The notes under the pieces were generated by a model, which did not search any database, was not told where the DNA came from, and saw only the letters and a program-made list of their open reading frames with translations. Source: an uncultured Chryseobacterium sp. (GTDB lineage Bacteria; Bacteroidota; Bacteroidia; Flavobacteriales; Weeksellaceae). From it: DNA of 64,000 nucleotides. The DNA lies in contig CAJYXJ010000065.1 of NCBI GenBank assembly GCA_913778085.1, positions 1-64,000 of the forward strand, read 5' to 3'. How positions within the stretch are numbered: the stretch's first letter is position 1; the number at the start of each line of letters is the position of its first letter. A program made the translations under genes and the position numbers. Below, one piece after another: positions 22,804 through 47,016 of this stretch.

Positions 22804-24003
22804 TTACAAAAGTTCAAAAAAACTTCTTTTTCCGATCTTGATTTTTGTTCCTTTGGTTACTGCAACTTTTTCATCGGGATCAGTTATTTTCTGATGATTG
22901 ATCTGAATCCCGCCGTTGATAATGAGCCTGCGGATAAAAGACTTGCTTTCTTTGTTTTTCAGCTGATGACAGAGTTCTGCCAGAGTCATGCTTTCCTGAC
23001 GATGATTCAGTGAACTTAAAGAAACCGGCTCAAACACTTTTTCATCATCATTTTTATTTTGAAACTGGTTCGTGAAAAACATTTCAGCCTGTTCCGCGGA
23101 TTCAGGATCGTGATATTGCGTAATGATATTTTTGGCGATAAGCCTTTTAATATTCATTGGGTTTTCACCGTTTGTAATGCTGAGCTTCAGGTTTTCTTTT
23201 TCTTTACCGGAAAGATCGGTGGTAAGGTCGATGAATTCAGCGATCAAAGTATCCGGAATAGACATGGTTTTGCCAAACATTTCATCCGGGGTATCTGTTA
23301 ATCCGATCGTATTGTTCAAAGATTTACTCATTTTTTCTTTCCCGTCCAGGCCTTTAAGCAGCGGCATGCACATGACAATTTGCGGTGATCTTCCGTGGAT
23401 TTCCTGCAGCTGCCTGCCCATGGTACAGTTGAACAGCTGATCGGTTCCGCCCATCTCTATATCGCATTCAATCTGTACCGAATCGAATCCCTGAAGAATC
23501 GGGTATACCAGCTCATGCATGGCAATTGGGGTATTTTCGGTAAATCTTTTGCTGAAATCGTTCCGCTGCATCAGCTGAGCCACCGTTACTTTAGACATGA
23601 GCTGAATGACTTCTGAAAAAGGCAGCGCATCCAGCCAGTCGGAATTGAATACTATTTTTACTTTTTCAACATCAATCACTTTGGCAAGCTGGCTGATGTA
23701 AGTTTCTGCATTATGCTTCACTTCTTCAGCATTTAAGGGTTGCCGGGCTTTATTTTTCCCGGTCGGATCCCCAATTCTTGCCGTAAAGCTTCCGACGACG
23801 ATCACAACCTGATGGCCAAGCTCCTGAAACTGCTTCAGCTTTTTCAGGACGACGGCATGCCCGAGGTGCAGGTCGGGAGCGGTAGGATCGAAACCCAGTT
23901 TGATGATGAGTTTCCTGTTTTCTTCTGCGGCCTGCTGAAATTTCAGTTCCAAACCGTTTGGCGGCAGCATAATCTCTGCGTTTTCTTTTAGTGTACGGAT
24001 CAT
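22804..24003 (-). CDS. tyrS: tyrosyl-tRNA synthetase
   Basis: The 399-residue protein is a class I synthetase of the TyrZ branch. It has the signature HLGH (46-49) in DPTAPDLHLGHAVVLKKL, the KMSKS loop (224-228), and a C-terminal S4 RNA-binding domain (about 335-395, SFIRRLIINGGIQINHQKI). It charges tRNA-Tyr. A leader upstream appears to hold a Tyr-rich peptide and a terminator only 21 nt before the ATG, implying control by tyrosine supply (see the leader features). Confidence 0.96.
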   Translation of the reverse strand: MIRTLKENAEIMLPPNGLELKFQQAAEENRKLIIKLGFDPTAPDLHLGHAVVLKKLKQFQELGHQVVIVVGSFTARIGDPTGKNKARQPLNAEEVKHNAETYISQLAKVIDVEKVKIVFNSDWLDALPFSEVIQLMSKVTVAQLMQRNDFSKRFTENTPIAMHELVYPILQGFDSVQIECDIEMGGTDQLFNCTMGRQLQEIHGRSPQIVMCMPLLKGLDGKEKMSKSLNNTIGLTDTPDEMFGKTMSIPDTLIAEFIDLTTDLSGKEKENLKLSITNGENPMNIKRLIAKNIITQYHDPESAEQAEMFFTNQFQNKNDDEKVFEPVSLSSLNHRQESMTLAELCHQLKNKESKSFIRRLIINGGIQINHQKITDPDEKVAVTKGTKIKIGKRSFFELL

Positions 24004-24024
24004 TTTTTTTGAATTTTAAGCATG

Positions 24025-24053
24025 AAAAAACCCGGACGAAGGGTCCGGGTTTT
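24025..24053 (-). terminator. terminator/attenuator hairpin in the tyrS leader
   Basis: On the minus strand, AAAACCCGGAC (24053-24043), loop CCTTC and GTCCGGGTTTT (24037-24027) make an 11-bp stem followed by further T. The 5' arm segment CCCGGACC can instead pair with GGTTCGGG of the leader ORF. That would prevent the terminator from forming. Confidence 0.85.
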
Positions 24054-24087
24054 CTATTATTCTAGTTGAATTTTTACTGAAATAGAT

Positions 24088-24171
24088 CTATAGAAGCTTT
24101 CCCGAACCATAGGCCGGGTAATAATAATTGCTGAAAAAAGGCAATCGTAAGATGTTGTTGAGCTGCTTCAC
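24088..24171 (-). CDS. Tyr-rich leader peptide of tyrS
   Basis: A 27-codon frame starts at GTG 24171 and ends at TAG 24090-24088. It encodes a peptide containing FFSNYYYPAYGSGKLL: Tyr codons TAT TAT TAC, then TAT three codons later. It lies between the upstream gene and tyrS, directly behind a TATATTTG box and in front of a terminator. A ribosome stalled on the Tyr codons would cover the CCCGG segment, freeing GGTTCGGG to pair with the terminator's 5' arm. There is no ATG in frame; GTG would be nearly leaderless, and an internal TTG start is possible. An overlapping frame (MVRESFYRSISVKIQLE) is the alternative reading. Confidence 0.7.
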   Translation of the reverse strand: MKQLNNILRLPFFSNYYYPAYGSGKLL

Positions 24172-24176
24172 TGTTG

Positions 24177-24184
24177 CAAATATA
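24177..24184 (-). promoter_or_regulatory. -7 box TATATTTG of the tyrS leader
   Basis: A perfect TAnnTTTG match on the minus strand ends 5 nt before the GTG of the leader peptide. No TTG occurs at 19-nt spacing (the position holds TTC). Confidence 0.6.
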
Positions 24185-24218: not shown

Positions 24219-24836
24219 CTACAGACGGTGGAGTCTTATAATATTTCCTTTGTAGAATTTAGTGGAATCATACAGTTCGGAAAAATGACGGTGCATTTCC
24301 GGTTTTGGCATGTTAGATTTATGTTCCTGATAAGCGGTTTCAGCGAGGGAATAAAGGCTTGAGTAACCGGATTTCAGGTAATCAAAATGAAAATCTATTT
24401 CACCGTTTTTATTGATCATCCCTGAAAAAAAGATCCCGTAGATCAGGAATGGATTAAAAACTTCAGAATCCGTTTTACAGCCGAGGCTTATGTTTGCATG
24501 TTTCTCATAATCTGCCAGGATCCCGTGGAAAGCTTCCACGTCCGATGCACCGGAAATCTCATGGAATATATCGATCCCGTGAGTAAATAACTGCGCTTGC
24601 AATTCTTCGGGATCCGCATCGCATTTGGCATCAAACCACCTGAAAATATCCAGCAGTTCTTCTTTTGAAATATCGTCTATATGATGAAGTGTTTTTTTCT
24701 TGATGAGCTCCAGGCTTGTTTTTTTATCATCCTGGAGAAATTGGAGAACATGCTCTTCTTCGCGGCAGAGTTTGTTGTATAAATTGATTTTTGCCACAAC
24801 CGGATTGGTCTTGATGAAGTAAAGTTTCTCTGCCAT
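24219..24836 (-). CDS. protein of unknown function
   Basis: The 205-residue soluble protein has no signal peptide or membrane segment. It starts MAEKLYFIKTNPVVAKINLY, then has a helical, charged middle with a Lys-rich ELIKKKTLHHIDDISKEELL and FRWFDAKCDADPEEL. Its C-terminal half is mixed, with FLIYGIFFSGMINKNGEIDF. I recognise no family. It is the last gene before the tyrS leader, and its stop lies 35 nt before the leader's -7 box, so tyrS appears to have its own promoter. Confidence 0.7.
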   Translation of the reverse strand: MAEKLYFIKTNPVVAKINLYNKLCREEEHVLQFLQDDKKTSLELIKKKTLHHIDDISKEELLDIFRWFDAKCDADPEELQAQLFTHGIDIFHEISGASDVEAFHGILADYEKHANISLGCKTDSEVFNPFLIYGIFFSGMINKNGEIDFHFDYLKSGYSSLYSLAETAYQEHKSNMPKPEMHRHFSELYDSTKFYKGNIIRLHRL

Positions 24837-46667: not shown

Positions 46668-46998
46668 CACGAGAAAATCGGCCTGTTGATTCTTATTTCG
46701 GTAAGGGTAGGAAAGTCCGGACACCGTAGAGCAGCAAAGCGGATAACCTCCGTCACCCGTGAGGGTAGGACCAGTGCAACAGAAAGGATGTACAGTTCGG
46801 CTGTAGTGAAATCAGGTAAACTCTTTGTGGTGCAATGATAAGTATATCGGTTCTTTTCAGCAATGGGAATAGGGGCGGCTCGCTCTGAAAGCCGAGGGGT
46901 AATCAGCTCAAGTCATGCAGCAATGTATGATGCAGATAAATAACAGGCATTCCGTTCTTGCGACGGGATACAAAATCCGGCTTATAGATTTTCTCGTG
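46668..46998 (+). ncRNA. rnpB: RNase P RNA component, bacterial type A
   Basis: The 331-nt RNA has the conserved core GGTAGGAAAGTCCGGACACC near its 5' end and ends with the matching ATACAAAATCCGGCTTATAG. Helix P1 is a perfect 12-bp pairing of CACGAGAAAATC (46668-46679) with GATTTTCTCGTG (46987-46998), which sets both ends. The universal ACAGAAA segment and GAGGGTAGGACCAGTGCAAC are present. It is the catalytic RNA that trims the 5' leader of pre-tRNAs. Confidence 0.95.
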
Positions 46999-47016
46999 AT
47001 TTTTTGAAAATTCCAA

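Follow-up and report, generated by a model that had tools for sequence, protein, structure and literature searches.

Why should the gene for a tyrosyl-tRNA synthetase (TyrRS) be preceded by a short open reading frame (ORF) containing a run of tyrosine codons and then by an intrinsic terminator? The question is raised by the window analysed here, a stretch of 64,000 nt from an uncultured Chryseobacterium sp. (contig CAJYXJ010000065.1 of assembly GCA_913778085.1), in which a first-pass annotation had read the arrangement as a tyrosine-sensing transcription attenuator in front of tyrS. Ribosome-mediated amino acid attenuators are known from the trp, his, phe and pheST leaders, and what these have in common with the present case is a translated leader ORF, several consecutive codons for the cognate amino acid and an antiterminator whose formation excludes that of the terminator. 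Our analysis supports the attenuator reading through a conserved ORF and its Tyr codons, mutually exclusive pairings, covariation and linkage to the synthetase gene. The leader is very probably a ribosome-mediated transcription attenuator, which would sense a failure of tRNA-Tyr charging and induce a backup TyrRS.

A second tyrosyl-tRNA synthetase

The product of the gene (22804-24003, on the minus strand like every element of the leader described below; 399 aa) is a tyrosyl-tRNA synthetase, matching TIGR00234 with 343 bits against a cut-off of 113.8. Its translation contains HLGH and KMSKS, which we take to be the HIGH- and KMSKS-type synthetase motifs, and its nearest solved chains are 1h3e, presumably the Thermus thermophilus enzyme, and 6bqy. 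The same genome carries another TyrRS on contig C72, which is 28% identical to the first and has 6n0w, 2ts1 and 1jii as its nearest solved relatives. The window gene therefore encodes an accessory enzyme, here called TyrRS2, and not the housekeeping TyrRS; the name tyrS given to it earlier was right as to the enzyme encoded and wrong as to which of the two it is.

TyrRS2 occurs in 66 of 89 genomes of the genus, a count that takes in a partial match in G021, whose upstream DNA was left out; the genomes that have it show a pair of TyrRS matches apiece, the remaining 23 a single one. Across the phylum, where 395 genomes were sampled evenly, identities above 50% came, among the matches listed, from only three genomes, all of the same genus and including that of the window. 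Copies 65-73% identical are found in Flavobacterium notoginsengisoli, Faecalibacter, Taibaiella, Bizionia, Gynurincola and Sphingobacterium, and Rufibacter has one at 59%. This patchy spread suggests that TyrRS2 has travelled by transfer. The gene upstream of the leader (24219-24836) encodes 205 aa with no Pfam family at E 0.001, and a bacterial RNase P class A RNA lies elsewhere in the window, at 46670-47000 (Rfam RF00010, 190 bits).

The tyrZ gene of Bacillus subtilis is reportedly under the control of a MarR regulator and a T box, going by the title of Williams-Wagner et al. 2015. It resembles our gene, by description rather than by sequence, in encoding a second TyrRS, and differs in its regulation, with an attenuator proposed here. 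The example lends some plausibility to a T box or another riboswitch upstream of TyrRS2, but no family reached threshold in an Rfam scan at the locus, and there was no T box among the 12 sub-threshold matches up to E 1. Four of these are amino acid operon leaders on the right strand, the best being the Leu operon leader (E 0.004, well below threshold), joined by the Phe, Thr and His leaders, and the rest are likely chance; a riboswitch can practically be dismissed. In B. subtilis the second enzyme stands beside a housekeeping TyrS, and TyrZ prefers L-Tyr over D-Tyr, according to excerpts of PMC9437257.

The leader and its alternative RNA structures

The elements on which the attenuator reading was built are all present in the window. 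A putative promoter -7 box, TATATTTG (24177-24184; consensus TAnnTTTG), is followed by a GTG-started ORF of 27 aa, MKQLNNILRLPFFSNYYYPAYGSGKLL (24088-24171), in which codons 16-18 form the Tyr run TAT TAT TAC (24118-24126), with a fourth Tyr codon at 24109-24111. Segment 1, CCCGG (24114-24118), can pair with segment 2, GGTTCGGG (24108-24101), and segment 2 can instead pair with segment 3, CCCGGACC (24049-24042), through 8 bp of which one is G-U. Segment 3 is common to this antiterminator and to an intrinsic terminator, a hairpin with a T run (24025-24053) whose arms AAAACCCGGAC/GTCCGGGTTTT span 24053-24027; the ATG of TyrRS2 follows the T run at a distance of 21 nt. All of these elements were confirmed base by base. 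In the fold, the antiterminator is extended by a second helix, TTCTAT (24090-24095) with ATAGAA (24052-24057). The leader RNA folds at -37.5 kcal/mol, beating 200 of 200 dinucleotide shuffles (z -3.26). The 2:3 pairing of the window sequence alone is only modest against shuffles (p 0.045), so it is conservation among relatives that settles whether it is real.

The leader motif precedes 96 of 97 TyrRS2 loci of at least 58% identity (82 distinct leaders). All 65 TyrRS2 loci fetched from the genus have it, and leader-bearing copies are also found in Flavobacterium, Bizionia, Taibaiella, Gynurincola and Sphingobacterium. The sole exception, a Rufibacter locus, has a diverged Tyr-rich ORF upstream of TyrRS2. 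This Rufibacter leader reads MTLHQLTFYKYSAFSTYCKIAVAWEYYA, and by eye the CCTGGG near its end could pair with the CCCAGG of the next hairpin, the same logic in changed letters. Searching with a profile of the leader peptide turned up strong matches in 116 of 297 family genomes, or 119 at E <=0.01 with three weak ones included; in the phylum sample 3 of the 395 genomes had strong matches, all of the window's genus. Each of the 18 strong matches outside the genus, which come from four genera of the family, precedes a TyrRS2 at 68-75% identity. Extra weak matches in G033 and G079 have no TyrRS2 adjoining, and weak matches in G696, G547 and G653 and seven in the phylum sample (E 0.002-0.01) were taken by their scores as chance.

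All leaders combined amount to 97 distinct versions. Tyr codon 16 is present in every one, codon 17 in 95 and codon 18 in 26; at codon 17 the exceptions have Asp (L025, giving Tyr-Asp) or Leu (L236, with a single Tyr codon at the site). Both TAT and TAC are in use at codon 17. Codon 16 (24124-24126) is TAT in all 82 leaders tallied, with no synonymous change among 21 representatives. The GTG start noted earlier is true of the window and of two further leaders; ATG is used in 94 of the 97. In the relatives the Tyr codons are joined upstream of TyrRS2 by the terminator, a combination whose absence the first-pass annotation would have taken as refutation: allowing one mismatch, every one of the 97 leaders has the hairpin, and 80 of 82 have it without any. 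An automatic control scan looked for YY ORFs in the 300 nt upstream and for terminators in the final 140 nt. Not one of 21 housekeeping tyrS genes from the genus had both, nor did any of 65 other, remoter TyrRS loci; a YY ORF without a terminator preceded four of the former and four of the latter.

A TAnnTTTG-like box (at least 5 of 6 positions) lies just ahead of the start codon, ending 4-9 nt before it, in 94 of 97 leaders; the search took in no box ending more than 14 nt away. In excerpts of PMC9723704, TAnnTTTG is given as the sigma-A box of F. psychrophilum, at -12 to -5, and 5.5% of the mRNAs with mapped starts in that organism are leaderless. The same placement here would leave a 5' UTR of 0-5 nt, and of 1 nt in the window, where transcription would start at 24172, just 5' of the start codon. 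By this analogy the leader RNA is probably near-leaderless.

Covariation was counted in 30 of the 82 distinct leaders, a diverse selection that does not include L003 and L015, in which the terminator had failed the no-mismatch test. In the terminator stem 99.6% of cells are paired, and four of its eight pairs have changed on both sides, a number reached by 4 of 500 shuffles. In the 2:3 antiterminator 96.7% of cells are paired; by count of changed cells and by covariation score it surpasses the shuffles (0 of 500 each). One of its seven pairs has changed on both sides, from U-A to C-G in 4 of the 30 sequences, which is not above chance as 268 of 500 shuffles reach it, and the number of pair types exceeds the shuffles neither for the antiterminator (160/500) nor for the terminator (397/500). 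Paired changes among relatives, named at the outset as a test of the attenuator, give strong evidence in the terminator and less in the antiterminator. The strands of the antiterminator do co-vary: GTTCGGG goes with CCCGAAC or CCCGGAC, GCTCGGG with CCCGAGC and GCCCGGG with CCCGGGC. At least six contiguous pairs are retained in 96 of the 97 distinct leaders, a Bizionia leader (L051) being without the 2:3 pairing in the common register. Taken one at a time, the sequences are only on the border of significance when compared with shuffles (median p 0.045, with 17 of 30 at <=0.05). The second helix is out of register across clades in the alignment (A1) and was assessed by folding and shuffles, L051 being left out; in 20 chosen clade representatives it lies above the shuffles when all are combined (Fisher chi2 106.6, 40 df), and singly only 6 of the 20 reach p <=0.05.

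Of the 1:2, 2:3 and 3:4 scheme proposed for the window, the exclusion between 2:3 and the terminator stands; the window's own 1:2 pairing (CCCG with CGGG) is weak, because the equilibrium fold without a ribosome still favours 2:3 (6.7 of 7 pairs). The 1:2 partner varies by clade, being for example GTCTTCC with GGAAGAC in L021 and L027, and in L048, L054 and L136 the Tyr-codon sequence itself pairs with a downstream partner. The distance from terminator to start codon is 17-24 nt in 79 of 80 leaders and 33 nt in L136, and 17-24 nt is too short for another promoter.

When a ribosome is placed on the leader in the computation and the fold is scored for at least four 2:3 pairs before the 3' arm of the terminator is made, the modelled outcomes follow the logic expected of an attenuator. 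With Tyr codon 16 occupying the A site, every one of the 97 leaders reaches at least four pairs in the computation; codon 17 there gives 96. With the ribosome at the stop codon the number is 32, the other 65 falling below four. Without any ribosome 54 leaders, the window among them, have at least four and 43 have fewer. For the window itself a ribosome at the stop codon lowers the 2:3 pairs to 3.9. It weakens this logic that many leaders favour 2:3 without a stall, so that the off state has to come from kinetics, from ribosomes that have reached the stop codon or from the strength of the terminator.

The peptide encoded by the leader

The selection acting on the ORF is that of a short translated leader. 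In 21 chosen representatives pN/pS is 0.36 for codons 2-6, 0.10 for codons 7-13, 0.38 for codons 14-15 and 1.16 for codons 18-24, and in the TyrRS2 gene it is 0.24 (20 genes). Chryseobacterium leaders by themselves give 0.095 for codons 2-13 (30 of 68 sampled), shifted frames give 1.15 and 1.60, and none of 100 column shuffles is as low as the real alignment (13 representatives, codons 2-18). These figures argue that the ORF is translated and that its peptide is under purifying selection up to the Tyr codons, which classical attenuation would not require and which the first-pass annotation had missed. The tightest stretch, ILRLPFF (codons 7-13, 24133-24153), has Pro11 in 97 of 97 distinct leaders, Leu8, Arg9 and Phe13 in 96 each and Phe12 in 95. 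A degenerate version of the ILRLPFF pattern occurs at 10 places in the window's genome, one of them the leader; the eight loci read in frame (C54 left out) are unlike Tyr leaders and were rejected as further copies.

Selection on the peptide itself would also be found if the ORF were a separate gene for a small peptide, ending in a terminator of its own and preceding TyrRS2 by coincidence. Other evidence speaks against such a gene: the C-terminal part is unconstrained, the terminator keeps its 17-24 nt distance from the TyrRS2 start, TyrRS2 is the next gene wherever the flanks of strong leader matches were read, and the antiterminator pairing is kept. We regard this explanation as highly improbable.

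The two Phe codons of ILRLPFF (24133-24138) lie just before the Tyr codons, and the leader might sense aromatic amino acids more widely, reading Phe codons 12-13 in addition to Tyr codons 16-18, an idea that overlaps with the preferred one. The near-constancy of Phe12 and Phe13 fits it, and so do the computed folds, in which 91 of 97 leaders form the antiterminator when Phe codon 13 occupies the A site of the ribosome; the folds thus do not separate a Tyr stall from a Phe stall and are no proof of Tyr specificity. Two leaders nevertheless have other residues at codons 12-13, Leu-Leu in Taibaiella (L050) and Tyr-Phe in L234, and Leu8, Arg9 and Pro11, which are neither Tyr nor Phe, are equally conserved. 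Aromatic sensing of this kind seems unlikely.

Another attenuator-like leader offers a comparison within the genus. In the window's genome a His leader on contig C20 (L273), MKPIFLTVHHYHHHLC, lies about 350 nt upstream of a HisG match, with a terminator-like hairpin, ACCGTCTG/CAGACGGT, between it and hisG; it is predicted to be a His attenuator, and HHH ORFs precede 9 of 20 hisG loci scanned. Unlike the Tyr leader, it starts 18 nt after its promoter box, and its N-terminal peptide differs between families: there is no evident likeness to three leaders from other families, whose HisG proteins are 65-68% identical. The TyrRS2 genes compared outside Chryseobacterium are 66-73% identical, a similar divergence.

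That loss of the N-terminus in a his leader of the same phylum at similar gene divergence, though it comes from three comparisons only, is one reason to consider the Tyr leader as an arrest-peptide switch. On such an account MKxLNxILRLPFFSxYY would arrest the ribosome in answer to a small molecule, be it free tyrosine, an analogue or a drug acting on translation, with the Tyr codons forming part of an arrest motif instead of a sensor of charging. Residues 7-13, held more tightly than the enzyme itself and followed by an unconstrained stretch at 18-24, agree with this, as does the constancy of Pro11 and Tyr16 in every leader and of Leu8, Arg9 and Phe13 in all but one. The mixture of TAT and TAC at codon 17 and the presence of Tyr at codon 18 in about a quarter of the leaders are, however, what codon sensing predicts, and the gene downstream encodes the matching enzyme. 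A switch of this sort is very unlikely.

Within the favoured attenuator, the peptide may still have work to do. That selection fades where the Tyr codons end is as expected if the peptide matters while nascent, with the ribosome waiting there. By counting residues, ILRLPFF would then sit in the upper part of the exit tunnel, about 3-9 residues away from the P site, during a wait at Tyr 16-17, and from its conservation we infer that it helps the ribosome to stall. A hybrid in which nascent ILRLPFFSxYY turns slow decoding of Tyr codons on a leaderless leader into a firm, Tyr-specific arrest is plausible, and we put it forward tentatively as something short of probable.

The proposed mechanism and related systems

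RNA polymerase would start on the leader start codon or immediately ahead of it, giving an almost leaderless RNA on which a ribosome would begin, transcription and translation being assumed to be coupled in Bacteroidota. With Tyr-tRNA plentiful, the ribosome would reach the leader stop codon, the 2:3 pairing would not be kept, and the terminator would form and leave TyrRS2 off. With Tyr-tRNA short, the ribosome would stall with Tyr codon 16 or 17 in its A site and cover segment 1; segment 2 and the second helix would then capture segment 3, the terminator would be blocked and TyrRS2 would be made, presumably as a backup enzyme.

What sets this leader apart from trp, his, phe and pheST is the placing of Tyr codons before a second TyrRS, the near-leaderless ORF, the two-helix antiterminator and a peptide conserved up to the regulatory codons. 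Vecchione and Sello (2010) are said to have described ribosome-mediated attenuation of an auxiliary, antibiotic-resistant TrpRS gene, presumably of a Streptomyces, which is the nearest functional precedent. It too involves an accessory aminoacyl-tRNA synthetase under such an attenuator; the case here differs in concerning Tyr and Bacteroidota and in having no drug link shown.

The literature covered on leader peptides, attenuation, arrest peptides and accessory synthetases, with few subscription papers among it, yielded no Tyr-leader attenuator for tyrS in Bacteroidota, in line with the first-pass annotation, which knew of none. Excerpts of PMC9723704 report strong clues of leader-peptide attenuation before amino acid biosynthesis operons in F. 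psychrophilum, so the general mechanism is already suspected in the phylum. Excerpts of a paper on Actinobacteria (PMC1262725) contain a single mention of tyrS.

If the attenuator operates as proposed, it predicts that transcription and translation in Bacteroidota are coupled tightly enough for attenuation, even where the RNA has next to no 5' leader. It would also supply a regulatory logic for a second TyrRS of patchy occurrence, a spare made only when charging fails, comparable to the spare drug-resistant synthetases. A leader peptide whose amino acid sequence appears to be under selection beyond its regulatory codons is a directly testable case, and the hybrid, if true, would be an arrest-peptide-assisted attenuator travelling with a backup TyrRS across the Bacteroidota.
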